From a virus, in IMG/VR virus record IMGVR_UViG_3300032898_000010, positions 1-40,217 of that record: 40,217 nucleotides of DNA; one strand, written 5' to 3'. This document shows positions 3-27,011 of the stretch, in pieces; position 1 is the stretch's first letter, and each line of letters opens with the position of its first letter. The notes below the pieces were generated by a model. It had not been told where the DNA came from. It worked only from the letters and a program-made list of their open reading frames with translations, and ran no database searches. The translations under genes and the position numbers were made by a program.

Positions 3-1484
3 GCCACCCCTCCCGGCTTCCCGACGATAGAAGAGTTCCGTTCCTGGAATGCCGAGACCCAGAAGAAGTTCCTGGAGACAGTCGAGCTTCAGGTCGCTAA
101 GCGCGAGGTCCGGCCCTGGCGGAAGACGGCGCGGCCCAAGCAGCTGCCGCCCGACGACCCGGATCACTGCAAGCCGGACGCGCGCGGAATCCGCTGCGGC
201 TGCCACGGCACCGACCGTAAGTACAACATTCACCTGGTCATGGCCGGGCGTGGCATGGGCAAGACGTTCATGGGCGCCAACTGGATCGCCGAGCAGGCGG
301 CGGCCAACCCGAACTCCGAGTGGGCTGTGCTCGCGCCCAGTTTCCGGGATGTCCGCAAGACCTGCTTTGAGTCGGATGTCGGGGTCATCCGGGCACTGAT
401 GCCGGGCGAGATGACGAATTACCGTCGGAATGAGCTTCAGATCGTCCTGTCGAATGGCTCGGTCATTTACGGCTACTCGGCGGAGAACCCGGACAAGGTC
501 CGTGGCGCGAACCTGTGGGGCGCGTGGTGCGATGAGCTAGCCTCGTGGCGCTATCCCGCCACCTGGTACGAGGGCCTGCTGCCCGCCCTGCGGAAAGGCA
601 AGCACCCGAGGATCGTGGTCACCACCACGCCGCGTCCCGTCCGGCTGATCAACGACCTGGTCGGCCGCTCCGACGGCTCGGTCCACGTCACCAGGGGATC
701 TACCTGGGAGAACGAGGCCAACCTCTCCGACATCGCGCTCGATGAGCTGCGGCGCCGGTACGAGGGAACCCGGCTCGGACGCCAGGAGCTGGAAGGCGAG
801 CTTCTCGAAGACCTTGAGGGCGCGCTGTGGAACCGCAGGATGCTGGACGACGCCAGGGTCACAAGGGACGATGTCCCGGACCTGGTGCGCGTCGTCGTCG
901 CGGTGGACCCCGCGCTGTCCAGTGACCCGGAGAGCGACGAGACGGGCATCGTGGTCGCGGGCGAGGGCGCTGACGGTCACGGCTACATCCTGGACGACCT
1001 GAGCGCCCGGGTCAGCCCCATGCAGGCGATGAAGCTGGCGATCCGCGCCTACCGCCAGTGGGAAGCCGACTGCGTCGTCGCGGAGACCAACAACGGCGGC
1101 GACTTCGTCCGCGACCTGCTGCGAAACGTGGACCCGCAGGTGCCCTACAAGTCGATCCGGGCATCGCGCGGCAAGGCAGTCCGGGCGCAGCCGGTCTCGG
1201 CACTGTACGAGCAGGGCAAGATCCACCACGTCGGCGTGTTCGCCGCCCTCGAAGACCAGATGTGCCTGTGGGTGCCCGAGTCGCTGGACTCGCCGGACCG
1301 GATGGACGCCATGGTCTGGGCGGTCAGCGAGCTTCGCGGTCTCGGCGACGGCTCGTGGGCCAGCGTGTACGGCACGACACGGTGCGCGAGATGTGACAGG
1401 ATGTTCATCCTGCGGGACCGGAAGGCGTGCCCGCACTGCGGGGCGGTGATCGAGCAGGATGGCGCAGCGGCAGCTAGCGGTTAA
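3..1484 (+). CDS. terL: Terminase large subunit (5' end outside window)
   Basis: ATPase-nuclease motor that packages phage DNA into the prohead through the portal. The frame is open from the first bases of the window, so the true start lies upstream; the ATG at 240 is internal, just before the P-loop. Counting visible codons from position 3: Walker A GRGMGKT at 82-88, Walker B ending in Asp177-Glu178 (GAWCDE), coupling motif TTTPRP near 207. The RNase H-like nuclease domain has acidic residues in AVDPALS (Asp302), VVAETN (Glu361) and RMDAMVW (Asp435). The C-terminus carries a zinc-ribbon-like Cys461-x2-Cys464...Cys476-x2-Cys479, an extra beyond the usual fold. Family assignment is firm; the zinc role is inferred. 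Confidence 0.95.
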   Translation, partial: ATPPGFPTIEEFRSWNAETQKKFLETVELQVAKREVRPWRKTARPKQLPPDDPDHCKPDARGIRCGCHGTDRKYNIHLVMAGRGMGKTFMGANWIAEQAAANPNSEWAVLAPSFRDVRKTCFESDVGVIRALMPGEMTNYRRNELQIVLSNGSVIYGYSAENPDKVRGANLWGAWCDELASWRYPATWYEGLLPALRKGKHPRIVVTTTPRPVRLINDLVGRSDGSVHVTRGSTWENEANLSDIALDELRRRYEGTRLGRQELEGELLEDLEGALWNRRMLDDARVTRDDVPDLVRVVVAVDPALSSDPESDETGIVVAGEGADGHGYILDDLSARVSPMQAMKLAIRAYRQWEADCVVAETNNGGDFVRDLLRNVDPQVPYKSIRASRGKAVRAQPVSALYEQGKIHHVGVFAALEDQMCLWVPESLDSPDRMDAMVWAVSELRGLGDGSWASVYGTTRCARCDRMFILRDRKACPHCGAVIEQDGAAAASG

Positions 1485-3269: not shown

Positions 3270-3405
3270 GAACGCGGGCACGTCCTGGGCTGATATCGCC
3301 CGCCTGAATGGCTACGAGAACGGCAAGGCGGCGCGGAAGGCCGCGAAAGAGGCGGCGCGGATGACCCAGGCTTTCCTGCTAGAGAAGGAGTATGGCAAGT
3401 CCTGA
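3214..3405 (+). CDS. Small helix-turn-helix-like protein
   Basis: 63 residues. The central part (about residues 20-45, SWADIARLNGYENGKAARKA) matches the pattern of a small helix-turn-helix: helix, tight turn with Gly, then a basic Ala-rich recognition helix. The start ATG 3214 has GGAGG at 3200-3204 with nine-base spacing; ATG 3256 is a weaker alternative. It overlaps the preceding gene by 56 bases and the portal gene by 14. Small HTH proteins near phage packaging genes can act as terminase small subunits, so it is a candidate DNA-recognition partner, but that is speculative given its size. Confidence 0.68.
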   Translation: MTMTRAEAARTLSLMITAKNAGTSWADIARLNGYENGKAARKAAKEAARMTQAFLLEKEYGKS

Positions 3406-6400
3406 CGCTGCCATCAGGGCCTTTAAGGCCATGCCAGGCGCCGCTACCCCCACGGTGGCGCCGCAGGGTGCCAACGCGCCCTTCTTCGGGAACATCTCGC
3501 CTCTTACGGCTCAGCTTTCAAACGAAAGAGGGTACGCGAACAGCTACGGGCCGTTCCTGCCGAGAATGCCGCGCTCTTTCACTGACGGCGCATTCGGGCC
3601 GTTCAGCCCGATCCTTCCGGTTCCTGTCGATGAGCCCGCTCCGGGGGCAGAACTCCCGGATGCCCGGCTCTGGCAGTATATGGTGGGCTGGAACCTTCCG
3701 GTCGGCCAGCCAGGCACTGAGGGCATCAAGCTCGCCGATTTCGGCACCCTGAAGACCCTCGCTGACCTCTACTCGGTCGCGCGGGCCTGCATCGAGCTGC
3801 GCAAGAACGAGATCATCGGCCTGGACTGGGATGTCGTGCCCACCAAGGACGCGGCGAAGGCCTACCACGGCTCTGACCGCCAGTGGAAGGACTTCGGGGC
3901 GCGCCGCGCCCAGGCGCTGAAGTTCTTCCGCAAGCCGGACCCGGACTACTTCAGCTACGACCAGTTCATGGCGGCGGTGCTGGAGGAGATCTTCGTCTTC
4001 GACGCGCTGTCGATCCTCATCCGGCCCAAGCGGGGCCAGGGAATCCGGGGCGGCAGGATGTCGCGGGTCGGGTGGCTGGGCAGCGACCTGGACTGCATCG
4101 AGCTGATTTCCGGCCCGACGATGCGCCCCCTGGTCGGGATGCACGGCGAGATCCCGCGTCCCCCCAACCCCGCTTACCAGCAGTACCTGTACGGCGTGCC
4201 GCGCTCCGACTACATGACGATGGTCACTGAGCGTGACATCGACGAGGGCGGCCTGACCGAGGCAATCGTCAACTCCTGGACCTCCGACCAGTTCCTGTAC
4301 CTGCCGATGGTGCCGCGCCGCTGGACGCCGTACGGCTTCCCGCCGATTGAGCGTGCCCTCGTCCCGGTGATGTCCGGCCTCCAGAAGCAGGCCTACCAGC
4401 TGGACTTCTTCAAGGAAGGCACCATCCCGGCGGTCTACATCTCGCCAGGCGACGTCAACATGACGCCCAACCAGATCCGCGAGCTCCAGGACGCCCTGAA
4501 TGCGTTCGCCGGAGACCCGGCCTGGCACCACAAGGTGATCGTGCTGCCGCCAGGCTCGAAGGTGGACCCGCAGAAGCCGGTCGATGTCGCCGACCAGTTC
4601 GATGACGTGGTCATGACCCAGGTCTGCATGGCGTTCGACGTCAACCCGATGGAACTGGGCATCCTGCCGAAGGTGTCGGCCACCGCGACCCCGTCGCAGG
4701 TCAAGCAGCTAGCGCAGGGCATGGGCCAGGTCCACGAGCGGCTGTCCACCAAGCCGCTGCTGAAGTTCCTGTCGGGCATCTTCGACGTGCTGCTGCATGA
4801 TGTCATGCACCAGGAAGACATGACGTTCACGTTCGAGGGCCTTCAGGAGGACGCGGAGCAGGGCGCGCTCACCGACCTGCTCATCAAGCAGGTCCAGTCC
4901 GGCCTGCGGTCGGTGGACGAGGCCCGCGACCAGCTGGAACTCCAGCCCTGGGGGCTGGACGCCACATCAGAGCCGGTCGTCTTCACCGCCGCAGGTCCCA
5001 TCCCGTTCGGCCAGCAGGTGCTGCCTGCCACCCCGGGGCAGGCGCAGGGCGGGCAGCAGAACGCAGCCGCCGGACGGCAGCGTGCCCCGACGGCGGGCCC
5101 GGCTCCGCTGCCGCAGGCAGGACGCCAGGGCGCGCCCGCCGCGCCGACCCCGGGTCACGCCTCCGCCAGGGCCACCAACTCCGGGCTCCGGGCTGCCCGC
5201 AAGCCGCAGTCGGCGGCGCCTGCCGCGTCCGGCTCCGTGACCGCCCAGAAGCTGTCGGCGGCAGCTGTCGAGTCCGAGCTGGACATGCTGGTCCGTCACC
5301 TGAACAAGGGACGCCGGATCACCACCTGGGAAGCCAGGCACATCCCGTCGCATGCGATGGCGGTCATCAGCGAGGACCTGTCAAAAGGCCTGTCGCCCGA
5401 GCAGTGCGCGGACATCGCCCGGACGATAGTGCTGTCCAGCGACGAATACGAGTGGCTCCCAAAAGCTGACGCCCCCTGGGGCACCCTCCACGTCTGGGAA
5501 GAACGAGTTGACGGGGCGTTCGGCGAGGCGATCAGCGACATCGACGACGTGATCCGCCGCTGGTGGGCGGGTCAGGTCATGATCACCCGTCAGGAACTGC
5601 TGAACGTCATCGCGGGCATCATCCGCAAGCGCCTGGAGCCCGTCCTGAGCGACCTGTGGGCCGAGGGCTGGCGTCACGGCGACGAGACCGCCGGCGGGCT
5701 GTTCGAGGCCTGGGAAGCGTCCTACGGGCGCACTGTGGCGGAGGCGATCTCCCGCACCAGGGTGGATCAGATCGGCGAGGCGATCAAGGAGGCCGTCACC
5801 AGCGGGCGCGGGCCGGACTACGTCACCGGCCAGCTGGCAGCGCTGCTGGATGTCGGGCACCGCTCCCGGCTCATCGCGGTCACCGAGATGGCCAGGGCGG
5901 CCACTGACGCCACCGTCGCGAACTTCCGCCGGACGCGGGTCGCTTACAAGCACTGGCAGACGCGGGACGACGCGCGAGTCTGCCAGGTGTGCAGGGACGC
6001 GCAGGACGAGGGGCCGGTCCCGCTCGAAAGCCTGTTCGCCAACGGGCTGCCGGGACCGCCAGCCCACCCGCAGTGCCGCTGCACCCTGGTGCCTGGCTAC
6101 ATGGCCATCACCAAGGATCAGTCGGCGGAACTGCACGGCCCGGAGGGCACCGCCGAGTGTGATCGCGGTCATACTCACCACGGCGAGTACGGCGGAGCCG
6201 GGCTGCTGATCCGGCACAGGGGCGACGACGGCAAGCTCCGCTACCTGCTCCAGAAGCGCTCTCCGGAGGAAGACGACCCGGGCACCTGGAGCATTCCCGG
6301 CGGCGCGCTCCTCCAGGGCGAGCAGCCACTGCACGGCGCCTACCGCGAAGCTGGCGAGGAGATGGGTGATATCCCGCCCTCGGTGACCGAGCATCACCGG

Positions 6401-7429
6401 GTCGTGGATGATCATGGCGGCTGGGCCTGGACGACCCTGGTCTGCGACACCCCGGAGCAGTTCGCCCCGAGCGTCGATGGCGCGACCTCCGACGAGACGG
6501 CGGGCTGGGGCTGGTTCACCGCCGACGAGATCTCGCGGCTGGACCTGCACCCGCACTTTAAGGAGTCGTGGGACGCGGTCAGGCGCACCCGCAAGAGCAC
6601 CACGCTCGCAGGCAAGTGCGTCCGGCGCCGGGTCAACCTGGACGGCCAGGAGTTCTGGGAAGTCGAGGAGCCCGAGCGTCCCTACCCGCAGGCAGCGGGC
6701 GGCGGCGGGCCGGAATTCATGCCGCACGATGCCCAGGGCATCCAGCAGGGACGCGCTTCCGGCTCCCGTGGCGGCGGCACCAGCGGTCACATTGACGACG
6801 CGAGCATCCAGATGCCGCGCCCGCCAGCGGAGCCGTCAGGCGATGACGGCATGTGGCCGCAGCATCGCGGCGTCCCCCCGCACCAGGGGGGCGGGCCGCA
6901 GGGCTATCAGGGCGGGCACTGGCCGCGCGGCGGTCACGGCACCCAGGAAGCCGGCCCGCATCAGCCTGTGTCAACGGCACCGCGCGGCACAGGGGCAGGC
7001 AACGGAAGCCTCAGCCGGAAGCGGGACGCGAAGGCAGCCGTCGAGGCTCAGATGCGGGAGAACTTCCCCGATGACGCGCTGACCTGGATGCGGGAGGCAA
7101 AATGGTCCGGCCCGCACCAGATCCCGCTGAGGGACATTGACTTCAGTGACCGGAAAGAATGGTCGGCTTACAAGGAGCCTGACCGCGTTAAGCATTTCGA
7201 GCGCCTTATCGAGGACGGCGAGGACTTCAATCCCCCTGTTCTCGTGAGAATGACAGGGAAGAAGCGCCTGCGGATCGTGGACGGTCACCATCGCGGCCTG
7301 GCCTACTACAACAAGGGCCTGCCGCTGAAAGAGGGCTGGATCGGCGACATCCCGGCCGGGCTTCAGCAGGCTGCGGAGGAGACTCACAGCAGCCAGGAGC
7401 ACCAGGGCGCTTCGGAGGAGAACGAATGA
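3392..7429 (+). CDS. Portal-MuF-Nudix-ParB-like fusion protein
   Basis: 1345 residues, far longer than a usual portal (about 400-550). Residues about 60-550 are the portal ring protein through which DNA enters the capsid; the first 60 form an arm with PVPVDE and WNLPVGQPG. A Pro/Gln/Ala-rich linker (about 545-625) leads to a MuF/SPP1 gp7-like head morphogenesis domain (about 630-905) with Cys864-x2-Cys867 and HPQCRC at 892-897. Then a Nudix hydrolase domain (about 930-1070) with an intact Nudix box: Gly971, Glu977, Arg985-Glu986, Glu989-Glu990, Gly992. After a Gly/Pro/His-rich linker, residues about 1190-1330 are ParB/sulfiredoxin-like with DGHHR at 1297-1301. ATG 3392 follows AAGGAG very closely. 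The first two domains are secure; the enzyme activities are inferred from motifs. Confidence 0.92.
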   Translation: MASPDAAIRAFKAMPGAATPTVAPQGANAPFFGNISPLTAQLSNERGYANSYGPFLPRMPRSFTDGAFGPFSPILPVPVDEPAPGAELPDARLWQYMVGWNLPVGQPGTEGIKLADFGTLKTLADLYSVARACIELRKNEIIGLDWDVVPTKDAAKAYHGSDRQWKDFGARRAQALKFFRKPDPDYFSYDQFMAAVLEEIFVFDALSILIRPKRGQGIRGGRMSRVGWLGSDLDCIELISGPTMRPLVGMHGEIPRPPNPAYQQYLYGVPRSDYMTMVTERDIDEGGLTEAIVNSWTSDQFLYLPMVPRRWTPYGFPPIERALVPVMSGLQKQAYQLDFFKEGTIPAVYISPGDVNMTPNQIRELQDALNAFAGDPAWHHKVIVLPPGSKVDPQKPVDVADQFDDVVMTQVCMAFDVNPMELGILPKVSATATPSQVKQLAQGMGQVHERLSTKPLLKFLSGIFDVLLHDVMHQEDMTFTFEGLQEDAEQGALTDLLIKQVQSGLRSVDEARDQLELQPWGLDATSEPVVFTAAGPIPFGQQVLPATPGQAQGGQQNAAAGRQRAPTAGPAPLPQAGRQGAPAAPTPGHASARATNSGLRAARKPQSAAPAASGSVTAQKLSAAAVESELDMLVRHLNKGRRITTWEARHIPSHAMAVISEDLSKGLSPEQCADIARTIVLSSDEYEWLPKADAPWGTLHVWEERVDGAFGEAISDIDDVIRRWWAGQVMITRQELLNVIAGIIRKRLEPVLSDLWAEGWRHGDETAGGLFEAWEASYGRTVAEAISRTRVDQIGEAIKEAVTSGRGPDYVTGQLAALLDVGHRSRLIAVTEMARAATDATVANFRRTRVAYKHWQTRDDARVCQVCRDAQDEGPVPLESLFANGLPGPPAHPQCRCTLVPGYMAITKDQSAELHGPEGTAECDRGHTHHGEYGGAGLLIRHRGDDGKLRYLLQKRSPEEDDPGTWSIPGGALLQGEQPLHGAYREAGEEMGDIPPSVTEHHRVVDDHGGWAWTTLVCDTPEQFAPSVDGATSDETAGWGWFTADEISRLDLHPHFKESWDAVRRTRKSTTLAGKCVRRRVNLDGQEFWEVEEPERPYPQAAGGGGPEFMPHDAQGIQQGRASGSRGGGTSGHIDDASIQMPRPPAEPSGDDGMWPQHRGVPPHQGGGPQGYQGGHWPRGGHGTQEAGPHQPVSTAPRGTGAGNGSLSRKRDAKAAVEAQMRENFPDDALTWMREAKWSGPHQIPLRDIDFSDRKEWSAYKEPDRVKHFERLIEDGEDFNPPVLVRMTGKKRLRIVDGHHRGLAYYNKGLPLKEGWIGDIPAGLQQAAEETHSSQEHQGASEENE

Positions 7430-7907: not shown

Positions 7908-8275
7908 ATGTCCGGCAGCAAAGTTACTCTTACGGCACACGAACTGGCAGAGCTACAGAAATCGCCGCTTACCTGGTACTACTCCCACACCCCGTACCAG
8001 CTTGGCCCCGAGGGTCTGTGGCACACCCCCAGCAAGAAAGTGCCGCATAAGCAAAAGCTGCCGGACTTAAAGGCTATATTGAGCAAGTGGCGCGCGCCCT
8101 TATCCAGCAGCAGGGGATGGGCGAACAGCAAGCCATTGCGACGGCTATCAACGCCATTAAGCGGTGGTCAAAAGGCCGGCTTGGCTGGGGTAAGTACAAA
8201 ATTACGCCAGAAGTGGTCAGGGCCTCGAAAGATGCGCTTGCGCAATGGGAAAAACTAAAAGAAAGTCACCATTGA
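7908..8275 (+). CDS. Small phage protein split by a -1 frameshift
   Basis: ATG 7908 follows GGGGGGTGA at good distance. The N-terminal half (SGSKVTLTAHELAELQKSP, then Trp/Tyr-rich, then basic KKVPHKQKLPDLK) is in one frame. The C-terminal half (GYIEQVARALIQQQGM, then AINAIKRWSKG, then PEVVRASKDALAQWEKLK) is in the -1 frame and ends at 8275. The second half resembles a small domain that in phages follows a KLPxYV-type basic stretch, so the two halves probably belong to one 122-residue protein. The switch falls near CTTAAAG (8066-8072), where a -1 slip would give DLK-GYIEQ. Programmed frameshift, mutation and sequencing error are all possible. A stand-alone product from GTG 8087 (62 residues) is the alternative. 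Confidence 0.55.
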
Positions 8276-8652
8276 CGATCTACGTTGTTCCCGGCAAAGA
8301 CCTCGGGCCGACTGAGCTTCTTAACCTGCAAGACGCCTTGCGGCGCGAGCATTCAGGCAGCAGGGAGCGGATCATTGTCCTGCCTGCGCACGGCAAGGCC
8401 GGGCCTGACGCCATGGTCTCGCTGACTACGGCGGACGTGGACCGCTTCCGGCAGCGCGTGAGGGAGGTGCGCTTCGAGAATGAGCAAGCAGTCAAAGAAG
8501 AAAGCGCGGAAGCGGCGGCAGCGGCGCGACTCGCTGACCTACTACATCCAGTGCCCGGCCTGCGGCGCACGGGAAGACGGAAGCACCGGCGCCATGCTCA
8601 CCGCGCTCGCCGACTCGATGAACCTGCTCTCCGATTCCGGAGCGCGGATTAA
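8245..8652 (+). CDS. Portal-fragment-like small protein
   Basis: 135 residues. Residues about 10-60 (IYVVPGKDL..., LQDALRRE, IIVLPAHGK, then a TAD segment) align by eye with an internal part of the portal protein (VYISPGDVN..., LQDALNAF, VIVLPPGSK, then VAD; about 4430-4600 in the window), suggesting a duplicated and diverged piece. It overlaps the end of the preceding frame by 31 bases. The last 50 residues are Arg-rich and lie over the next gene, so they look like out-of-frame reading; the true C-terminus may be nearer 8480. No catalytic motif seen. Confidence 0.5.
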   Translation: MGKTKRKSPLTIYVVPGKDLGPTELLNLQDALRREHSGSRERIIVLPAHGKAGPDAMVSLTTADVDRFRQRVREVRFENEQAVKEESAEAAAAARLADLLHPVPGLRRTGRRKHRRHAHRARRLDEPALRFRSAD

Positions 8653-11987: not shown

Positions 11988-13142
11988 ATTAAGATCCTCT
12001 GGCACAGCGCCCCGCCGTGGATGCCCACGGGTTATGGCACGCAGACCGCGCTCACCGTGGCGGGGCTGAGAAGCCTCGGCCATGATGTCACCTGCTCATC
12101 GGCGCTGATGCGCACAGGGATCACCATCGAATGGGACGGCGTTCCCGTCCTGACGGGCTGGGCCGACGTGCGCGGGGGGAACGACTGCCTGATCCCGCAC
12201 GCGCAGTACTCTGGCGCTGACGTGGTCATCACGCTGATGGACTCCTACGTGATGAACCCGAGGGTGCTGTCGCAGGTCAGGGCGGCGTGCTGGATGCCGG
12301 TGGACGCCGCGCCAGCCGACCCGCGCGAGATCGCGCTGATCCGCACGAGCGGCGCGATGCCCGTGGCGATGTCGAAGTTCGGGGAGCGCGTCCTGCGCGA
12401 GGGCGGGCTGTACCCGCTGTACGTGCCGCATGCGGTGGACAGATCCGTCTACCACCCGCTGGATGGCAGCAAGACGCGGGCAGCCTGCGGCATCAGCGAT
12501 GACACCTTCCTGGTGGGATTCTGCGCCGCGAACCGGGACGTGTTCCGGAAGGGCTTCGCGGAGCAGTTCCAGGCGTTCGCGCAGTTCGCGGCGCGGCATC
12601 CGGACTCGCTGCTGCTGGTGCATACGGCGGCGGTGCAGAGTGACGCGCTGGACCTGACCCAGCTTGCCGTGGCCTGCGGGATCGGGGACAAGGTTGTCTT
12701 CCCTGATGAGCATGCGCTTGTGTCCGGGCTGATCACCGGGGCTGAGATGGCGCAGTGGTACTCAATGCTGGACGTCCTGTCCGCCTGCTCGTACGCCGAG
12801 GGATTCGGCCTGCCGATCATCGAGGCGCAGGCGTGCGGCGTCCCGGTGGTCGTCACTGACTTCGGGCCGATGACCGAGCTGTGCGGAGCCGGGTGGACGG
12901 TGCCAGGGCAGCCGTTCTGGGTGCGGGTCAAGCAGGGCTGGTGGTGCCAGCCTGACGTGCAGAAGATGGCGGACGCTTACGAGGATGCCTGGCAGGCACG
13001 GGAGAACGGCGAGATGACCGCCCTGAAGGCGAAAGCCCTCGATTTCGCGGCGGGATATGACTCGGAGCGCGTCCGGGATGAGTACTGGGTGCCCGCGCTC
13101 GCCGAGATCGAGTTCCGCCTCCTGTCCGGCGCTGAGCGGTGA
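11988..13142 (+). CDS. GT-B glycosyltransferase with apparent ATT start
   Basis: Transfers a sugar from an activated donor; cytoplasmic. The first ATG in frame (12021) would cut off the N-terminal strand that the paralogue at 25830 has as RILWYSNAPW. Reading from ATT 11988 gives IKILWHSAPPW, which matches, and GGAG at 11978-11981 is six bases ahead, so ATT is the best start (384 residues). GYGTQT lies in the N-terminal Rossmann lobe. The donor-binding lobe has the E-x7-E motif EGFGLPIIE (Glu271, Glu279), typical of GT4/GT1-type retaining enzymes, followed by ACGVPVV. Substrate unknown; the surrounding virion proteins suggest these are the targets. Confidence 0.85.
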   Translation: MKILWHSAPPWMPTGYGTQTALTVAGLRSLGHDVTCSSALMRTGITIEWDGVPVLTGWADVRGGNDCLIPHAQYSGADVVITLMDSYVMNPRVLSQVRAACWMPVDAAPADPREIALIRTSGAMPVAMSKFGERVLREGGLYPLYVPHAVDRSVYHPLDGSKTRAACGISDDTFLVGFCAANRDVFRKGFAEQFQAFAQFAARHPDSLLLVHTAAVQSDALDLTQLAVACGIGDKVVFPDEHALVSGLITGAEMAQWYSMLDVLSACSYAEGFGLPIIEAQACGVPVVVTDFGPMTELCGAGWTVPGQPFWVRVKQGWWCQPDVQKMADAYEDAWQARENGEMTALKAKALDFAAGYDSERVRDEYWVPALAEIEFRLLSGAER

Positions 13143-15729: not shown

Positions 15730-17928
15730 GTGGCGACCTTCAGTTACGCCGTCCCCCCGATGGTCCTGCCGTTCATCCCGGACACGCTGCCGCCGGGCGT
15801 CAACGTCGTCGCCTCGTACTCGTCGTCGCAGCCCGCTGGCGTCCGGGTTGTCTACCAGCGTCAGGGCTCCGCGCAGTCCACCCGCCTCATCCCGGCCACG
15901 CCGCCCGTCCAGGCAACGTTCTACCCGCTGAACCACCCCGCAGCCGCCGTTACCCGCCCGCTGCCGCTACGCGGGCGCACCGCTGGCCGCACAGGCAAGT
16001 TTGACCAGGCGGGGCCGCCGTTCTACCCGCTCAGGCATCCGGTCCAGGCGCGCCAGCCGCTTCCGGCCCGAGGGCGTACGTACAGCCGCGCCGGAAAGCT
16101 CAGCGTCCCGCAGACGGCGCCGTTCTACCCGCTGGATCATCCCGCGCAGGCACGTCAGCCGCTGCCAGCGCGGGGTCGGGTCGTCAGCCGCGCTGGCATC
16201 TACGATCAGGCGGGACCGAAGTTCTATCCGCTGAACCACCCGTCGGCAGCTGTTACCCGTCCGCTGCCGGCCCGGGGCAGGACTGCGGCTCGCGCGGGTA
16301 CCTACAGCCAGGCGGGACCGCCGTTCTACCCGCTCAGGCGTCCCGCCGCAGCGGTGGTGCGCCCGCTGCCAGCTCGCGGTCGCACTTACGGGCGCGCAGG
16401 CACTTACGATCAGGCCGGTCCGCCGTTCTACAGCCTGCCGAGACCGCATGCGGCGGCTGTCCGGCCGCTGAGCATCCGGGGTCGCACCAGCGGACGCGCT
16501 GGCTTCTACACCGTCCAGGCGACGTTCTACCCGCTGAACCACCCCGTCCAGGGACGCCAGCCACTGCCTGCCCGTGGGCACAGCCAGGGCAGGACTGGCA
16601 CCTACAGCCAGGCCGGGCCGCAGTTCTACCCGCTGAACCATCCCGTTCAGGCCCGCAGGCCGCTGCCGTCGCGCGGGAGCGCTCAGCGGCGCTACGGAAC
16701 GTTCACCGAGACCGCCCCCGCCACCTTCTACCCGCTGCACCACCCGGCTGGCGCTGTCGTCAGGCCACTTCCCGTCCGTGGGCGCACCTCGGGCCGGGCG
16801 GGAACGTTCGACCAGCAGGGCTCGCCGTTCTACCTGCTGCGTCACCCCGTCCAGGCCAGGCAGCCGCTGCCTGCCAGGGGCAGGACGGCGTGGCGCTACG
16901 GCGTCTTCACCGAGACCGCGCCAGCGGTCTTCTACCCGCTGAACCGGCCTGCCGCAGCGGTTGTCCGGCCCCTGCCGATCCGTGGCAGGACGACTGGCCG
17001 CGCTGGCACCTACGACCAGATCGGTCCTGCGTTCTACCCCCTGCACCACCCGGTGCAGGCACGGCGTCCGCTGCCGCCGAAGGGCACTGCGCAGTGGCGT
17101 TACGGCGTCTTCACGGCAACAGCGCCAGCGCCGTTCTACCCGCTGAACCACCCGGCCGCTGCCGTCGTCAGGCCGCTGCCGCTGCGGGGCCGTGCGCAGG
17201 GCCGTACCGGGACGCTCACGTCCTCGGTCACGGTGTTCTACCCCCTGCACCACCCGGTGCAGGCACGGCAGCCCCTGCCAGCCCGTGGTCGGGTCCGCAG
17301 CAATCCGGGCGTCTACGACCAGGCGGGACCGAGGGTCTACCCGCTTCAGCGGGCAGTGCGGGCGCGCCTGCCGCAGCAGCCTCCGCCGAAGGGTCACGCT
17401 CAGGGCCGCAGCGGCACCTTCAGCCAGTCCGGCCCGCCCGTCACGCCGCTGCAGCGGGCAGTCAGGGCACGCCTGCCGCAGCAGCCACCGCCGCGCGGCA
17501 GCGCGCAGGGCCACGCCGGGAAGTTCGCTCAGCCCGGTCCTCCGGTCAGGCCGCTGCAGCACCCGGTGTACGCCTGGCGTCCGGGCCCACGGCGGGGCGT
17601 CTGCCTGACCAGCGTCCGTCCGGCACCCCCGGTCAAGAACGTCACAAGGGCGTTCCCGCTCCAGCGTCCTGTTCAGGCTCGCAGGCCACTTCCGCCTGCG
17701 GGCCGCACTTACCGGACGCTGCCGTACGTGCCGCCGTACGTCCCGCAGGGCGGCCACGGCTATCCGTATAACGGCGCGCTCCAGGTGAACCCGCGCTGGG
17801 CGGCGGTGCTGGACAAGCCGGACTGGAATGTCGAGTACACAGGCGTCCCGGTGCGGTACCAGGCGACGTGTGATGACGCTCGCTGGCCTGCGCAGCTCCA
17901 GCCGCAGCCGCGCTGGTCCGCGTACTGA
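15730..17928 (+). CDS. 732-residue Pro/Arg-rich tandem-repeat protein
   Basis: After a 60-residue N-terminal segment (VPPMVLPFIPDTLPPGVNVV), residues about 64-666 consist of some 18 tandem units of 32-35 residues. The consensus is FYPLNHP, then VQARQ or AAAVVR, then PLPARGR, four variable residues, RAGTYDQAGPP. The last units degenerate (LPQQPPP variants). A short C-terminal domain (WNVEYTGVPVRYQATCDDAR) ends the protein. It is almost free of Cys and acidic residues inside the repeats, so it is strongly basic and probably extended. GAGGTGA precedes the GTG start. No enzyme motif. It may be a rod, fibre or DNA- or surface-binding filament; function unknown. Confidence 0.8.
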   Translation: MATFSYAVPPMVLPFIPDTLPPGVNVVASYSSSQPAGVRVVYQRQGSAQSTRLIPATPPVQATFYPLNHPAAAVTRPLPLRGRTAGRTGKFDQAGPPFYPLRHPVQARQPLPARGRTYSRAGKLSVPQTAPFYPLDHPAQARQPLPARGRVVSRAGIYDQAGPKFYPLNHPSAAVTRPLPARGRTAARAGTYSQAGPPFYPLRRPAAAVVRPLPARGRTYGRAGTYDQAGPPFYSLPRPHAAAVRPLSIRGRTSGRAGFYTVQATFYPLNHPVQGRQPLPARGHSQGRTGTYSQAGPQFYPLNHPVQARRPLPSRGSAQRRYGTFTETAPATFYPLHHPAGAVVRPLPVRGRTSGRAGTFDQQGSPFYLLRHPVQARQPLPARGRTAWRYGVFTETAPAVFYPLNRPAAAVVRPLPIRGRTTGRAGTYDQIGPAFYPLHHPVQARRPLPPKGTAQWRYGVFTATAPAPFYPLNHPAAAVVRPLPLRGRAQGRTGTLTSSVTVFYPLHHPVQARQPLPARGRVRSNPGVYDQAGPRVYPLQRAVRARLPQQPPPKGHAQGRSGTFSQSGPPVTPLQRAVRARLPQQPPPRGSAQGHAGKFAQPGPPVRPLQHPVYAWRPGPRRGVCLTSVRPAPPVKNVTRAFPLQRPVQARRPLPPAGRTYRTLPYVPPYVPQGGHGYPYNGALQVNPRWAAVLDKPDWNVEYTGVPVRYQATCDDARWPAQLQPQPRWSAY
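15919..17727 (+). repeat. About 18 in-frame tandem repeats of roughly 100 bp
   Basis: Each unit opens with a codon block for Phe-Tyr-Pro-Leu, carries PLPARGR near its middle and closes with an Ala-Gly-Pro type sequence. Units vary in the two central positions (VQARQ versus AAAVVR) in a partly alternating way, which suggests a two-unit (about 200 bp) higher-order repeat. Nucleotide identity is moderate, so the array is old or under protein-level selection. There are no spacers, so it is not a CRISPR array. Confidence 0.85.
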
Positions 17929-18859: not shown

Positions 18860-21800
18860 GTGGCAACTTCGATTACCAGCGACGGGCACATCTCCTACGC
18901 CTCGTTTCCCATTGAGAAAGTGGAGAGCACGCCTGACGGCGACCTGATGGTGTGGGGCAAGGCATCGGACGGCAGCGTCGATTCCGATGAGCAGATTGTT
19001 GACCCGGACTGGGCCGCAAAAGGACTCGCGGAATGGCTCGCTACCGGTCCTAATTTGCGCGTGCAACATCAGCCTCAGCGCGATCCGGCAGGCGTCGGCC
19101 TCACGGTGGAGCGCGATGGTGACGCTCACTGGCTGAAGGCCCTGGTGGTTGAGCCGGTAGCAAAGAAGCTGGTTCAGGCGGGGGCTTTGCGTGCTTACTC
19201 AGTGGGTATCGCCCGGCCGACCATCATTCGCGACTCCGTGGCACGTGGCGGTCGCATCACGGACGGGACTCTGGTCGAAGTGTCCCTGGTGGACAGGCCA
19301 GCAAACAAGGCGTGTCAGTTCCAGCTAGTGAAGGCTGATAAGTACGGGCATGCGCAATTCACCGGAAAGGTATTCGGGGCTGATGATGTGCTGACCAAGT
19401 CCGCCGATGACGTTACGATCACGCTCCCGCAGGATGTGCAGGTCTCTTTCTCGCCGCTGGACATGGCGAAGATCCTGGCGCGCAGGAACGGCGCTAACAA
19501 GGACGTGACGACTACCTACCATGGGGGCGTGCCGGGTGGCTCCGTCCCGAAGGCGGACGACGAGGAGGAGATCGAGAAGGACGCCGTCCGCTACGACGGC
19601 GGTGTCCCGATGGGGTCGAAGGCCGACGACGAGGGTCATGACATGTGCAAGTGCATGGCCTGCAAGGACGCGGGGATCAGGAAGGGGAAGCTGTCCACCG
19701 AGGCCCGCAACAAGCTGCCGGACTCCGACTTCGTCTTCCCCGAGGATCGCCGGTACCCGATCCACGACAAGAACCACGCCCGCAACGCCCTCGCCCGGGT
19801 CGCCCAGCACGGCACCCCCGAGGAGAAGGCGAAGGTCCGCGCTGCCGTTCACCGCCGGTACCCGGGTATCGGCCAGGAGAAGCCGTCGAAGAAGAAGGCA
19901 GCGAAGGCAGCCGCGTCAGTGGCGCAGGAAGCCCTGGCCGACATGACCAAGAAGGGCGAGCTGGTCAAGAAGGTCAAGGTCGCCTGCATGTCCTGCGGCG
20001 CGATGCAGAACAAGGCTCATGGCTACTGCTCCGAGTGCGGCACCAAGATGGATTCCGCGATGCCGGTGGAGAAGAACCACGATTTCATGTGCCTGAAGTG
20101 CGGCTACAAACTGGACAAGGGCGAGAGGCACTGCCCTGGCTGCGGCAGCGAGAATCCGGGCTATAACCCGATGGCGGACCTGAAGATTCCTGCTAACAAG
20201 ATGCTGCTGACGAAGGCAGCCGGAGAGGATCGTGTGCCTGTCACCAAGGCGAAGAAGAAGGGCAAGGGCAAGCCGTTCGGTGGCAATCAGGCACCGCCTT
20301 TCGGCAAGGACAAGGACGGCGACGACGGCAAGACCGAGAAGGCCAAGAAGAAGAAGGGCAAGGTGCCGCCCGTAATGGCGTCCGAGGAGGCGGCAGAGAA
20401 GGGCGGCTTCGGGCACACTGCGTCCCCTGGCGAGGGCGTGACGGGGGAGCACACCCAGTCCGTGCCGCGTCACCGCGAGCCGGACGGAGCTGAGGTGGAG
20501 ATGTTTGAGCGGGACTCCGGGCTGCCGACCAACGGTGACTCAAACAAGGGCCTTGGCGGCAAGACCACGACGCCCCCGGCCGGGCGCGCTGACATGCACG
20601 GCACTCCCGTCAACGGGCGCGGCAAGCGGAAGAAGAAGTCAAAGCCGTCGATGCCGACACCGCCAGGCGCTCACGGCGCGCAGGGCGCGCCCGGCTCGTC
20701 GATGGGGCCGTCTGACGAGGAGTTCGACCGGATGGCGGGCAAGTCCGCTGACCCGGAGGTTGCCGTCACCATGCGGCTCAAGAGCCTCGGCGTGGACGCG
20801 GGGATGGGCTTCCTGCACGACCTGACCTGCCCGGCCTACAAGTACGACGATGTCATGAAGGCGTACCCGACGGGGCTGGAGCGGTTCTCCGCCGACGAGT
20901 GGCAGGCCAAGGCGCTTTCCGCCGCAGCCTCCGCCCCGCTGGCTGAGGCGCAGGCCGCGTCCCAGCTTGGTCAGCATGCGTTCACCATCAAGTCGGCTGA
21001 CGTTAACGACCTGCACGATGTCAAGAACGACATCAACAAGGCGTTCCGGGACGCGAACCCCGGGCCGTCCAGCTTCCCGACGCCGGGTCACATCAGCGCG
21101 CAGCAGTTCCAGCGCCCGCACATCACCACGGGCCTGGCTGCCTACAGCCACCAGTACGACGGCCCGAACTCCGGTCACGTTCCTTCCGAGGGCGGCATCG
21201 CGGCGTCCGGCTTCACGCGGGGCAACATCGGCGGGACGGCCAGCCAGTCGCCTGCCCAGAAGGGCGAGAACACTACCCCGTACCCGTCCGAGACCGGCTC
21301 CCCTGTTAACCTGAACTACTCCAGTGTTCACAAGCAGAACCTGATGCAGGCGTTCAAGGCGATGCACGACCACTTCGACCGGATCATGCCATCGGGTGTC
21401 TGCCCGATGAACGCTCCCGCTGACGGCCCGGCCGCGCACCCGCTGCACTCCGCAGAGAAGGGTGCGCCAGAGCCCGCGCTGGCCAAGAAGGTCTCCGCTG
21501 ACGGGATGACCAAGAAGGCCCGCAAGAAGATGAACAAGAAGCTCGTCCGTGCGGTCATGAAGGGCAAGATGCCGCTTGACGAGGCGCGGATCAAGATGGG
21601 CAAGAAGCCGAAGAAGTCCCCGGAGCCGCTGAACCCGTCGAAGTCGGCGCAGCCGGACGTGACCAAGGCCACGACCGGGGATGCGGATCGCTTCACCGTC
21701 GTCATGAAGTCGGAATTCGCAGCGGCGCTGCGGAAGGCCGAGAAGAAGAATGCCGGCAAGATCAGGGCCCTGACGAGGGCCGTGAACGCAATGGCGGGCC

Positions 21801-22024
21801 AGCCAGACCCGGCCACCCAGGCATTCAAGGGAATGGCACTGAACCCAGTACGCAAGAACGCGAGCCCGGCGGGCGTCGCGTCAATCGCTGAGAACGCGGA
21901 GCGCACTCAGATGATGATCCTGCGGGAACTGGAGAGCGAGGCAAGGAACTCGCCTTATCCGGAGCGGCGGGAGGCCGCCTGGAATGCAGTCCTGAAGATG
22001 AAGGGCCTTAGCGATCTCGGCTAG
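18860..22024 (+). CDS. Capsid maturation protease with zinc ribbons and long C-terminal region
   Basis: 1054 residues from GTG 18860 (GGAG just upstream). Residues 1-165 are an HK97-type prohead protease, with a candidate triad His70 (LRVQHQPQ), Ser114 (RAYSVGIARP) and Glu140 (GTLVEVSLVDRP). The rest is unusual. Residues about 285-340 carry LPDSDFVFPEDRRYPIHDKN and HARNALARV, a motif recurrent in phage protease and structural proteins. Two zinc ribbons follow: Cys376/379/390/393 and Cys411/414/425/428. Then come Lys/Gly/Pro-rich linkers, a long region that may act as a scaffold, and a helical C-terminus. The protease normally cleaves scaffold and itself inside the prohead. The major capsid gene follows. 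Confidence 0.88.
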   Translation: MATSITSDGHISYASFPIEKVESTPDGDLMVWGKASDGSVDSDEQIVDPDWAAKGLAEWLATGPNLRVQHQPQRDPAGVGLTVERDGDAHWLKALVVEPVAKKLVQAGALRAYSVGIARPTIIRDSVARGGRITDGTLVEVSLVDRPANKACQFQLVKADKYGHAQFTGKVFGADDVLTKSADDVTITLPQDVQVSFSPLDMAKILARRNGANKDVTTTYHGGVPGGSVPKADDEEEIEKDAVRYDGGVPMGSKADDEGHDMCKCMACKDAGIRKGKLSTEARNKLPDSDFVFPEDRRYPIHDKNHARNALARVAQHGTPEEKAKVRAAVHRRYPGIGQEKPSKKKAAKAAASVAQEALADMTKKGELVKKVKVACMSCGAMQNKAHGYCSECGTKMDSAMPVEKNHDFMCLKCGYKLDKGERHCPGCGSENPGYNPMADLKIPANKMLLTKAAGEDRVPVTKAKKKGKGKPFGGNQAPPFGKDKDGDDGKTEKAKKKKGKVPPVMASEEAAEKGGFGHTASPGEGVTGEHTQSVPRHREPDGAEVEMFERDSGLPTNGDSNKGLGGKTTTPPAGRADMHGTPVNGRGKRKKKSKPSMPTPPGAHGAQGAPGSSMGPSDEEFDRMAGKSADPEVAVTMRLKSLGVDAGMGFLHDLTCPAYKYDDVMKAYPTGLERFSADEWQAKALSAAASAPLAEAQAASQLGQHAFTIKSADVNDLHDVKNDINKAFRDANPGPSSFPTPGHISAQQFQRPHITTGLAAYSHQYDGPNSGHVPSEGGIAASGFTRGNIGGTASQSPAQKGENTTPYPSETGSPVNLNYSSVHKQNLMQAFKAMHDHFDRIMPSGVCPMNAPADGPAAHPLHSAEKGAPEPALAKKVSADGMTKKARKKMNKKLVRAVMKGKMPLDEARIKMGKKPKKSPEPLNPSKSAQPDVTKATTGDADRFTVVMKSEFAAALRKAEKKNAGKIRALTRAVNAMAGQPDPATQAFKGMALNPVRKNASPAGVASIAENAERTQMMILRELESEARNSPYPERREAAWNAVLKMKGLSDLG

Positions 22025-22025
22025 G

Positions 22026-22047
22026 GCGTAATTACTCCAGCTTACGC
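22026..22047 (+). promoter_or_regulatory. Small inverted repeat before the capsid gene
   Basis: GCGTAA and TTACGC form a 6-bp stem with a 10-base AT-richer loop in the 50-base gap between the protease and capsid genes. It ends about 28 bases before the capsid start. It could be an operator, an RNA processing site or chance; there is no T-tract for a terminator. Confidence 0.25.
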
Positions 22048-22075
22048 AGAATTATCGCACAGAAAGGCGGTGCGT

Positions 22076-23953
22076 GTGGCCGACGTTCTCACGGCCAGTG
22101 ACTCCGCTCCTGGCGCGCCGAGCGCACTCACGCAGGCGGCCAGCGAAGCGGGCCGGTTCTCCTCCACGGGGGAGATGATCAAGAACGCGATGCCGGGCCT
22201 CGTCAAGGGCGCTGGCTACGCGAGCACCTCGCACGGCGTAGCGGGCCAGGGCGGCATGGGCAGCCCCGGCACCAAGCCGCTGGGCGACAACGACCCGGGC
22301 GTGATGCTGAAGGCTCAGCAGGCAACCCTGGATCTCCGCACGGAGACCTTCCGTGGCATCAACCAGCGCGCTGAGGTTGTCAAGGGGCTGAACCAGGGCT
22401 TCCTGAGCAACTTCGGGTACCTGAAGACGGCGCTGACCAGCCCGTCGCTGGGCGAGTCGCTGGCCTCGATGTTCCAGGGCGGGGCTGTCAGCCCTGACCT
22501 GACCCGTAGCTTCACTGCGGGCAACCTGGGCATTGGGTCCGTATATGGCCTGGTTCCGTTCGATTTGAGGGCACCTAGCAGGCTTATCTACCCGGTGTAC
22601 ACTGTGTACCGGAATAAGCTGCCTCGTCCTCCTGGTCAGGGCACCTCAATGCAGGAGCGCGTGTTCACTGGCGTGTCCGGCTCCCAGACCGGCGGTCAGG
22701 GTCCCCTGGACATCTCCATCACTGAGCTTGTCTCGACTGGCTCAGCCACCTTCTCCACCTGGCCGCTGAACCTGCCTGGCGCAGGCTCGCAGACCGAGGT
22801 CAACCTCAATGTCCCCTACCGCTTCTTCGGCCTGACCGAGCAGCTTTCCTGGCTGGCGCAGTTCGCGGGCCAGGGCTTCGAGGACATCTCGGCTCTCGCG
22901 AACCTGATCCTGCTGCAGGAGATGATGCTGAACGAGGAGTATCAGCTGATCTCCGGCTCCACGGTCAACATCGCGACCCCGGCCGCTCCCACCCTGACGG
23001 TCCGCACCGCGCAGTCGAACGAGACCGCGATCACCGGCACCGCCGCCAGCTCCGGCTACTACGTCGAGGTCGTTGCGGTCAACTACTTCGGCACCACTGC
23101 CGCGTCAACAGGCACGGCGATGACCGGCTTCGCCGCAGGCGATGTGGTGGACGTGTTCATCACGCCGTCAGCGGGCGCGCTGGAGTACCAGATCTGGCTC
23201 ACCGCCAGCAGCGGCGCTGCCACCGGCTACTTCTGGGCGACTGTCGGCGGCACCAAGTACACCGTCCAGGGCGCAACGCCTGGCGCGACGGCGACAGTGC
23301 CCGCATCCGACAGCGGGACCGGCAAGTCCACCCGCATGGAGGGCATCGTCCCGACCCTGACCGGCCTGTCCGCTCAGGGCGGCATCTACCCGACATCCCC
23401 GGTCTCATGGCAGGGCGGCTACGTCAACAACGGCGTCGGCACCCACCTGTCATACAGCGCCATCTACGCGGTGCTGAAGGGCCTGTGGGATAGCACCCAG
23501 ACCAGCCCTGGCGCGTTCAAGGCCGACCCGGCCGAGATCGTCTCCTCGGGCTCCGACATCGCGAATCTGAGCCAGGATGTCATCAGCCAGGGCGCGGGCA
23601 CCAACTACGAGCTGTTCATCCAGCAGGGCGATGTCGGCAACGTCACCGTCGGCGCTGCGGTGAGCCAGTTCCAGAACCCGCTGACCCGCTCGCTGGTCAA
23701 GCTGGTCGTCCACCCGTTCTACTACCAGGGCAACGCCGACATCCTGACCTACCAGCTTCCGCAGACCTGGTCGAATGTCGCCAACGCCTGGGAGATGACC
23801 TGCGTCCAGGACTACGTGTCCATCGCGTGGCCGGTCATCGACGCAACGTTCCGCTACTCCATCTTCCTGTACGGCGCGCTCTGCGCGCACGCCCCGCAGT
23901 TCTCCGCTCACCTCGGCGGGCTGCAGCAGTCGGACGTGACCCCGTACAGCTAA
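22076..23953 (+). CDS. Major capsid protein (HK97-like) with inserted beta domain
   Basis: 625 residues from GTG 22076, which sits eight bases after AAAGG; GTG 22070 is in frame but inside the ribosome site. The shell protein of the head. The N-terminal arm (about 1-110) is flexible and Ala/Gly-rich, likely removed or reshaped by the upstream protease. Core segments include SPDLTRSFTAGNLGIG, LRAPSRLIYPVYTVYRNKLP and, near the end, NPLTRSLVKLVVHPFYYQGN. Residues about 300-417 form a Thr/Ala/Gly-rich beta insertion (YYVEVVAVNYFG, then YQIWLTASSGAATGYFW) resembling an Ig/FN3 module, probably exposed on the capsid surface. Assignment rests on order after the protease, size and composition. Confidence 0.85.
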   Translation: MADVLTASDSAPGAPSALTQAASEAGRFSSTGEMIKNAMPGLVKGAGYASTSHGVAGQGGMGSPGTKPLGDNDPGVMLKAQQATLDLRTETFRGINQRAEVVKGLNQGFLSNFGYLKTALTSPSLGESLASMFQGGAVSPDLTRSFTAGNLGIGSVYGLVPFDLRAPSRLIYPVYTVYRNKLPRPPGQGTSMQERVFTGVSGSQTGGQGPLDISITELVSTGSATFSTWPLNLPGAGSQTEVNLNVPYRFFGLTEQLSWLAQFAGQGFEDISALANLILLQEMMLNEEYQLISGSTVNIATPAAPTLTVRTAQSNETAITGTAASSGYYVEVVAVNYFGTTAASTGTAMTGFAAGDVVDVFITPSAGALEYQIWLTASSGAATGYFWATVGGTKYTVQGATPGATATVPASDSGTGKSTRMEGIVPTLTGLSAQGGIYPTSPVSWQGGYVNNGVGTHLSYSAIYAVLKGLWDSTQTSPGAFKADPAEIVSSGSDIANLSQDVISQGAGTNYELFIQQGDVGNVTVGAAVSQFQNPLTRSLVKLVVHPFYYQGNADILTYQLPQTWSNVANAWEMTCVQDYVSIAWPVIDATFRYSIFLYGALCAHAPQFSAHLGGLQQSDVTPYS

Positions 23954-25829: not shown

Positions 25830-27011
25830 TTGAGGATTCTCTGGTATAGCAACGCGCCCTGGAACACCTCGGGCTACGGCACCCAGACCGTGCTCTGGGT
25901 CAACAAGCTCAAGGACATGGGGCACGAGGTGGCCGTCGCTGCCTTCCACGGGCTGCAGGGCGTCCCGCTGAACTGGAACGGCATCACGGTCCTGCCGGGC
26001 TCCTCGGAGGACATCTGGGCGCAGGATCTCATGGTCGGCCACTACCAGCAGTGGAAGGCTGACCTGCTGATCACCCTCATGGACTACTGGGTGCTCGATG
26101 CCGCCAAGCTGCGGCAGGGGATTGACGAGTTCGGCATGAAGATCGTGCCGTGGCAGCCGGTGGACACTGAGCCGCTCGGCGCGCTGGATCAGCGCAACCT
26201 GATGATAACCGGCGTCCGGCCCATCGCGATGTCCCATCACGGCGAGAAGCAGCTGAAAGAGTTCTCGCCGTGGTACATTCCCCACGGCATCGACACGAAG
26301 AACCTGTGGAAGCCGCCGACGAAGAAGCAGCGCGCCGAGTCGCGCGGCAAGGGCGATTTCGAGGACAAGTTCCTGATCGGCATGAACGCCGCCAACCAGG
26401 ACCCGGTCCGCAAGGGCTTCGGCGAGCAGCTGCTGGCCTTCCGGCTGTTCGCGGACAGGCACCCCGACGCGCGGATGCTGATCCACACGCGCCGCCAGAC
26501 CAGGCACGGCATCGACTTTGACCGGCTCATTGACGTCCTGAAGCTCCAGGGCAGGGTCCACTTCGGCGACCAGTACCTGACATCTGCCGGGATGACGACA
26601 TCCGCCGAGCTTGCCCGCTGGTACGGCACCCTGGACCTGCTGTCCAACTGCTCTTACGGGGAGGGCTTCGGGCTTCCGGTCCTGGAAGCGCAGGCCTGCG
26701 GGACGCCGGTCGTGGTGACCAACTGCTCGTCCATGACCGAATTGTGCGGCTCGGGCTGGCTGATAGAAGGCGAGTTCTACTGGAACGCGGGGCACTCCGC
26801 GTGGTGGACGCGCCCCTCGGTGCAGGCGATCCTGACAGCGTACGAGCAGGCTTACGAGCGAGCGCGCGACCCGGTCATGCGGAGAGAGGCTCGCAAGTTC
26901 GCCCAGCAGTACGACGTGGAAGTGGTGGCCCGGCGGTACTGGGAGCCGTTCCTCGCCGAGATCGACTTCCAGCTTGCTGAAGCCGATGCCGCGAAGGCTG
27001 CCTCAGCGTGA
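25830..27011 (+). CDS. GT-B glycosyltransferase (paralogue of 11988 gene)
   Basis: 393 residues from TTG 25830; AGGAG is 12 bases upstream, rather far, but this start gives the complete N-terminal strand RILWYSNAPW. GYGTQT follows. The donor lobe has EGFGLPVLE (Glu278, Glu286), the E-x7-E of GT4-type retaining enzymes, then ACGTPVVVTNCSSMTEL. Its similarity to the 11988 gene is spread over the whole length (GYGTQT, the DPVRKGFGEQ versus DVFRKGFAEQ region, the E-x7-E block), so the two are duplicates with perhaps different sugars or acceptors. First gene of a tightly coupled sugar operon; its stop overlaps the next start as GTGA. Confidence 0.9.
   Translation: MRILWYSNAPWNTSGYGTQTVLWVNKLKDMGHEVAVAAFHGLQGVPLNWNGITVLPGSSEDIWAQDLMVGHYQQWKADLLITLMDYWVLDAAKLRQGIDEFGMKIVPWQPVDTEPLGALDQRNLMITGVRPIAMSHHGEKQLKEFSPWYIPHGIDTKNLWKPPTKKQRAESRGKGDFEDKFLIGMNAANQDPVRKGFGEQLLAFRLFADRHPDARMLIHTRRQTRHGIDFDRLIDVLKLQGRVHFGDQYLTSAGMTTSAELARWYGTLDLLSNCSYGEGFGLPVLEAQACGTPVVVTNCSSMTELCGSGWLIEGEFYWNAGHSAWWTRPSVQAILTAYEQAYERARDPVMRREARKFAQQYDVEVVARRYWEPFLAEIDFQLAEADAAKAASA

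Follow-up and report, generated by a model that had tools for sequence, protein, structure and literature searches.

Enzymatic domains on phage portal and MuF proteins have been described before. Iyer et al. 2022 (PMC9503650) reported Nudix domains fused to portal/MuF proteins, proposed that these are packaged and injected, and assigned most phage Nudix domains to T4 NudE-like and NadM-like clades; ParB does not occur in the text of that paper. Polyvalent proteins (Iyer et al. 2017, PMC5512222), which are multi-domain phage proteins packaged in the head, include fusions of ParB, ADP-ribosyltransferase (ART), 2H phosphoesterase and MuF/portal domains. Portal and MuF share one gene in Microbacterium phages (PMC7302621), on which the excerpt of that paper considered here mentions no Nudix or ParB, and gp3 of the Arthrobacter phages Mufasa8 and Sonali (YP_009885083.1, YP_009819676.1) combines portal, Nudix and MuF in one chain beside terminase and protease genes. 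DGHHR ParB domains have been described as the toxic tips of polymorphic toxins, where their active site is predicted to bind metal (PMC3482391), and the ParB fold can bind CTP, ATP or GTP (PMC12704722). In this study we analyzed the IMG/VR virus contig IMGVR_UViG_3300032898_000010 (40,217 bases, G+C approximately 66%; this whole stretch is referred to as the window), in which one gene encodes portal, MuF, Nudix and ParB/sulfiredoxin (ParB/Srx)-fold domains in a single chain.

The matched parts of Mufasa8 and Sonali gp3 are only approximately 28% identical to the window chain; their Nudix lies between portal and MuF, belongs to a subfamily unlike that of the window and is not accompanied by a ParB domain. 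Unlike in the polyvalent proteins, the anchor here is a full portal and the ParB domain is of the DGHHR type, which is not shown to be DdrB-like. The polymorphic toxins (PMC3482391) have a C-terminal ParB fold with a strongly conserved DGHHR as well, but on RHS/filamentous haemagglutinin toxins, whereas here it is found on phage portal proteins. Searches of open-access text turned up neither a DGHHR ParB domain on a portal nor a portal-borne Nudix and ParB pair, and the ParB-fold survey (PMC12704722) contains no occurrence of portal, MuF or Nudix. The novelty that a sequence-only reading of this DNA had attached to the chain has to be narrowed, since Nudix-portal/MuF and portal-MuF fusions are already published and portal-Nudix-MuF is present in cultured Arthrobacter phages; the portal-borne DGHHR ParB domain, the Nudix and ParB pair and the swapping of cassettes are new. 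The finding is sound, with its main claim partly anticipated by the published Nudix/MuF/portal fusions. The portal subunit, among the most conserved virion parts, serves this family, which consists of uncultivated tailed phages, as a mount for exchangeable enzymes. The chain and its parts are located in the window as follows (ORF, open reading frame; aa, amino acids; nt, nucleotides):

3392..7429, + strand: portal-MuF-Nudix-ParB/Srx chain, a single ORF of 1345 aa and 145 kDa in an uninterrupted frame with no internal stop
3782..4930, + strand: portal domain, aa 131-513 (PF04860, E 6.4e-13; phrog_2662 portal, E 3e-60)
4979..5236, + strand: linker 1, Pro/Gly/Ala-rich, aa ~530-615, between the portal and the MuF region, variable in the alignment
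5237..6106, + strand: MuF region, aa ~616-905, with the PF04233 core at aa 792-899 (nt 5765-6088; E 1.6e-9)
6164..6604, + strand: Nudix domain of type A, aa ~925-1071, with the PF00293 core at aa 945-1054 (E 4.5e-12)
6302..6367, + strand: Nudix box GX5EX7REUXEEXG, aa 971-992, its seven box residues identical in 21/21 portal-fused type-A sequences
6623..6658, + strand: linker motif RRRVNLDGQEFW, aa 1078-1089, recurring in relatives
6659..7006, + strand: linker 2, long and Gly/Pro-rich, aa ~1090-1205, with low sequence conservation
7034..7426, + strand: ParB/sulfiredoxin-fold domain, aa 1215-1345, from a profile against the PDB, AlphaFold2 and Foldseek
7280..7294, + strand: DGHHR motif, aa 1297-1301, identical in the ParB domains of 26/26 relatives

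The Pfam matches to portal, MuF and NUDIX all exceed the gathering cut-offs, and the portal match covers positions 4-318 of the 321 positions of PF04860, indicating an HK97-type portal. The MuF domain has the C-terminal C..C/H..CRC motif, with both CQVC and HPQCRC present. A PHROGs scan of the chain returned MutT/Nudix families, a portal-MuF family over aa 91-905 and, weakly, ParB at aa 1257-1306; the PHROGs 'portal protein' family 15528 matches the Nudix part. Together with the ParB profile and model described below, the three Pfam matches bear out the four domains in one chain named by the sequence-only reading, which had also placed the Nudix box residues correctly (G971, E977, R985-E986 and E989-E990, to which G992 can be added) and had recognized the C-terminal DGHHR (aa 1297-1301) and the long Pro/Gly-rich linkers (about aa 525-615 and 1090-1205). 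That reading had been staked beforehand on the Nudix and ParB folds and on the frame up to residue 900; both folds were recovered and the frame is unbroken. The linker motif, in general form RRxV[ND]x[ND]GQE[FY]W, follows the Nudix in relatives, or the MuF where the Nudix is absent. No second copy exists anywhere in the window, and a prohead-protease site common to the capsid protein is unsupported, as the motif occurs only once.

To collect relatives, a Nudix search led to L029/L030, an identical phage in two samples whose chain has all four domains, and alignment with the L030 chain then yielded 36 viral loci in IMG/VR. With the window chain (P0001) alone as query, neither IMG/VR nor the GTDB genomes yielded a close relative, and its ParB part alone as a scan query found none either. 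Similarly, the alignment search of one-per-species GTDB genomes found no relative and no close relative was found in cultured phages, while among 50,697 cultured phage records searched for ParB homologues the window domain gave only weak Vibrio matches (E >= 0.1) and the L037 domain none. Counting non-identical chains that reach into the ParB region, portal, MuF, type-A Nudix and ParB were present in a single ORF in 17 chains plus the window, giving 18. Across the family, identity to the window is 51-72% in the portal, 26-36% in the MuF, 31-47% in the type-A Nudix and 33-43% in the ParB domain. Since 17 further non-identical chains have the four domains in the same order, chance or artefact is excluded: a chimeric contig or read-through gene, which could be suspected for a metagenomic contig without a cultured counterpart, is refuted by the recurrence of the chain in 17 further contigs, which are non-identical and come from different samples, and retains practically no probability.

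The junction to the ParB domain varies among relatives. In L047, ParB is a separate gene with a GTG start 3 bases past the portal-MuF-Nudix stop, after a Shine-Dalgarno-like AGAAGG; a programmed frameshift between the two ORFs was rejected in favor of this coupled start. In L065 (13100-14978), approximately 1.3 kb with two reverse-strand ORFs splits the pre-ParB linker and ParB stands in its own ORF; Rfam gave no match for a group I intron in this gap. Short C-terminal extensions after ParB were of a LPAYIQNIARALMRDQG...AVKRWA type in L067 (13059-13325), L042, L045, L040 and L047, and of a W-rich WGtpGDF type in L041 (12261-12500), L048 and L062, with no Pfam match for either.

The model of the Nudix domain reached a predicted local distance difference test (pLDDT) score of 88 and Foldseek matched it to Nudix enzymes down to E 1.6e-12. 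G971, E977, R985, E986, E989, E990 and G992 are invariant in all 21 portal-fused type-A domains, and the box is complete through the second Gly, with Asp993 at the last U position of GX5EX7REUXEEXGU. The prediction for the domain is a metal-dependent hydrolase that is catalytically competent and acts on X-diphosphate-Y nucleotides. RenU of Mycobacterium smegmatis (6uuf) is the nearest solved neighbor of the model, followed by ADP-ribose-binding NrtR, Ap4A hydrolases and RppH. It resembles the window domain in sequence (30-32% identity), in its comparable length and in a C-terminal LHPxF..sW element, but is without the REXXEE part of the Nudix box, which is complete in the window chain. Nudix domains of the same broad subfamily are also carried by Streptomyces plasmids (L005, L010) and a Mycolicibacterium plasmid (L007), where they are N-terminal in proteins of approximately 1100 aa and lie within one very large toxin-like protein; this subfamily may serve actinobacterial mobile elements more generally as a conflict domain.

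For the C-terminal domain, the single window sequence gave no match in the Pfam scan and a weak match to PHROG 1033 (E 5.7e-5). The ParB/sulfiredoxin-like assignment of the sequence-only reading, weak with a single-sequence hidden Markov model (HMM), became firm with a profile of 26 aligned homologues and with AlphaFold2 and Foldseek. PDB matches of the profile span E 0.0017-0.01 and include SerK (5x0e, E 0.0017) and SbnI (E 0.009), over a segment that contains DGHHR. The AlphaFold2 model (mean pLDDT 91, predicted template modelling score 0.83) retrieved almost only ParB/Srx-fold structures in Foldseek, the best being Noc, ParB, sulfiredoxin, SbnI, SerK, PadC and KorB with probabilities of 0.98-1.00, modest E values (from 0.004) and query template modelling (TM) scores of approximately 0.4-0.53. 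The domain therefore belongs to the ParB/Srx superfamily. DGHHR as well as T1331, H1332 and Q1335 (TH..Q) are invariant in 26/26 ParB domains, and the superfamily's active-site-loop Arg (GxxR/DGHHR) corresponds to R1301, kept in all 26. A helix-turn-helix (HTH) DNA-binding domain was looked for in the chain and not found, and the identity of a partition clamp was rejected because the chain ends with the ParB domain at residue 1345 and has no HTH or dimerisation part. Binding of nucleoside triphosphate (NTP) and metal is predicted for the domain, as is phosphotransferase or nuclease activity. The two candidate enzymes per chain of the sequence-only reading stand with their predicted active-site motifs intact, while its ParB-like nuclease becomes one option among several. 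The closest solved relatives by sequence, SerK and SbnI, are ATP/ADP-using free-serine kinases and share the ParB/Srx fold, but the C-terminal domain of SerK is not in the chain. To our knowledge, no substrate has been assigned to a DGHHR ParB domain in phages. Here the domain is small, defined, confidently modelled (pLDDT 91) and paired with an obvious partner enzyme, which makes it suitable for testing.

The ratio of nonsynonymous to synonymous substitution rates (dN/dS) was 0.03 for the portal, 0.09 for the MuF and 0.08 for the Nudix in the closest pair (L038/L039), and 0.10 for the ParB domain in its closest informative pair (L042/L048). L037, L057, L059, L060 and L063 follow a portal-(MuF)-ParB-Nudix order with a Nudix of another type (type B) C-terminal to ParB. 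On the Nudix tree, type B groups with the Arthrobacter phages Mufasa8 and Sonali, whose gp3 Nudix is its kin, and the branch to type A amounts to 2.64 changes per column. On the portal tree, type B requires three changes forced by well-supported branches, and the type-B chain L037 has starred support for its grouping with L034 and L067, both of which are type-A chains. Since the type-B chains do not form one group on this tree, an unrelated Nudix was swapped into the chain more than once. That two unrelated Nudix families have repeatedly taken each other's place on one scaffold suggests selection for Nudix activity on the chain, and is the strongest indication at the sequence level that the chain benefits from this activity. 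The NUDIX Pfam model found at most one Nudix per contig in eight contigs, always on the portal chain. Nudix identity to the window peaks in polyvalent proteins (59% to L016); re-acquisition of the window Nudix from these is not claimed, as an approximately unbiased (AU) test leaves the portal type-A clade unrejected (p 0.34).

Further domains accompany this module in relatives. A 2H phosphoesterase is located between MuF and Nudix in L065 (PF13563, E 1.2e-6), a stretch closely resembling it by sequence likeness is present in L058, and in L062 the ORF after the portal/MuF-like ORF holds ParB, 2H phosphoesterase (E 1e-10) and ADP-ribosyltransferase (E 4.5e-19). Nudix domains mostly 48-59% identical to that of the window are present in giant phage proteins, which are 1059-2196 residues long. 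Many of these proteins also contain ParB-like segments (DGHHR, NGHHR or EGNHR), three of which were matched by the portal ParB profile against a 19-sequence set (E 1e-8 to 1e-6), and 2H domains were confirmed in the single giant Nudix-bearing protein scanned. The Nudix occurs with ParB-like domains on portals as well as in giant proteins, so that its link to the DGHHR ParB/Srx domain is now seen in two kinds of protein with unrelated architectures.

In known phages the C-termini of portals and the MuF proteins point into the head, and for this reason the tail of the chain would probably lie inside the head too, which makes a virion location of the C-terminal domains plausible. By homology, residues 1-530 form the portal subunit; the MuF region and the tail would lie inside the head in up to twelve copies, packaged via the portal/MuF anchor. 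The tail would then enter the cell with the DNA, freed at ejection or by linker cleavage, for which the capsid maturation protease is one candidate; the long flexible linkers, one with the conserved RRxVxxxGQEfW, would permit proteolytic release or independent motion. In the infected cell, the enzymes of the tail would act on nucleotide- or ADP-ribose-type molecules that serve host defence or are needed for takeover, either neutralising or diverting them. The gene is therefore read here, with somewhat better than even confidence, as encoding a portal protein with a packaged polyvalent effector tail that is delivered with the DNA and hits such molecules, and the heads of these phages probably contain enzymes ready for use when infection starts. 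We infer packaging and the kind of target from the partner set (Nudix, 2H, ADP-ribosyltransferase and ParB), which matches that of packaged, injected conflict proteins (PMC9503650, PMC5512222), together with the description of DGHHR ParB domains as toxin tips (PMC3482391) and the binding of CTP, ATP or GTP by ParB folds (PMC12704722). The window chain combines several effector domains with a head-packaging domain and late-gene context, as polyvalent proteins do, and the occurrence of a free ParB gene in L047 and L065 may be counted for an effector as well. The role on nucleotide- or NAD-type signals put forward by the sequence-only reading is consistent with the 2H and ADP-ribosyltransferase domains in relatives.

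Several observations weigh against a packaged effector. Delivery of a portal-fused tail through the narrow portal channel requires the tail to be cut off or to unfold, and the chain has no identified cleavage site. The Nudix is not essential to the family, since L055 is portal-ParB without Nudix and the fragment of L062, where portal and MuF-like sequence share an ORF, is devoid of Nudix; the structural neighbors of the Nudix also leave its substrate unfixed. In the ParB domain, residue 1261 is Lys in the window versus His in 25 relatives. The candidate counterpart of the catalytic Glu30 of SerK, in an uncertain alignment, is Glu in the window and Gln in most relatives, which makes a serine-kinase reading doubtful. 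The persistence of ParB in the Nudix-less L055, where this most persistent appendage is retained, speaks for a role in assembly or at the vertex, in which the domains stay on the portal ring to which they are physically linked and work in the procapsid or at the packaging vertex without injection. ParB/Srx would then be an NTP-gated DNA-contacting module, given that some ParB folds clamp DNA in an NTP-dependent manner (PMC12704722), and the Nudix would clear nucleotides or by-products. We consider this unlikely, because the domain comes without the HTH and dimerisation parts that ParB clamps usually have and the swapping with 2H and ART domains and the free-gene ParB of L047, L065 and L062 are unlike a fixed packaging function. 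To be given similarly little weight is a portal ring that acts as a twelve-fold enzyme platform, on which the Nudix and DGHHR-ParB module would stay and process nucleotide signals at the vertex or ejection site; here the two-enzyme module persists though its Nudix is replaced by an unrelated one across the ParB domain.

If the tail were instead cut off or made separately in late infection and acted in the cytoplasm, the fusion would serve as a co-expression device. The long linkers with the conserved RRxVxxxGQEfW motif and the separately translated ParB of L047, with its Shine-Dalgarno-like sequence and coupled start, would agree with this, but co-expression does not need a fusion, the single chain is kept in most relatives and MuF/portal fusions are the classical setting of packaged effectors (PMC5512222), so that we regard it as improbable. 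Exaptation of Nudix and ParB as non-catalytic folds that build an internal core is very improbable: an internal protein of approximately 80 kDa per subunit would look like such a core and RenU, the nearest solved Nudix, is itself without a full Nudix box, yet the Nudix-box residues and DGHHR are invariant although the remainder diverges to 31-43% identity, and the Nudix was replaced by a non-homologous Nudix. A packaged, delivered effector tail remains the preferred reading, and the position of the gene in a head module is described by the following neighbors:

3..1484, + strand: terminase large subunit (phrog_979, E 2.4e-35), its 5' end cut off by the window start
18860..22024, + strand: 1054-aa protein, probably capsid maturation protease/scaffold by homology and synteny; adjoins the portal chain 3' in L059 and L067
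22070..23953, + strand: probable major capsid protein, 627 aa (phrog_13692, 'unknown function', E 1.9e-53), its role suggested by synteny

The terminase gene lies upstream of the portal-chain gene and the capsid module (18860-23953) further downstream, while in L059 and L067 the counterparts of both capsid-module genes come directly after the portal chain. The protein of 18860-22024 gave no HMM match to a named protease, its protease role being read from sequence alone, and that of 22070-23953, which is 51-64% identical to its counterparts in relatives, gave none to a named capsid HMM; the two are putatively the capsid maturation protease/scaffold and the major capsid protein. The probable capsid protein has a phrog_13692 segment in common with a 209-aa protein (1459-2088) whose end repeats the N-terminal motif of the portal as GPLSAIMPVPVDEE..RRWEYPV.GNLP, the portal version being GPFSPILPVPVDEP..RLWQYMVGWNLP. 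A small ORF at 8245-8652 resembles portal residues 347-400 in its residues 11-61 (30% identity; E 0.001 when the two sequences alone are compared) and is possibly a duplicated portal fragment. No tRNA genes were found over the 40,217 bases. A 732-aa protein at 15730-17928 consists of tandem FYPLxHPxxARxPLPxRG repeats (DNA period approximately 204), with a longer repeat protein located upstream of the portal in L067, and two glycosyltransferases (phrog_2170; 12021-13142 and 25830-27011) lie within the structural region. Finally, intein-like inserts of 286-378 aa were observed at four different portal-domain sites in relatives (L052, 8367-9224; L067, 8751-9884; L064, 3173-4237; L065, 8898-9950). 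These begin with Cys and end with Asn followed by Ser/Thr, and those of L064 and L067 gave LAGLIDADG matches, the latter below the cut-off; portal genes as recurrent intein targets may be of interest.

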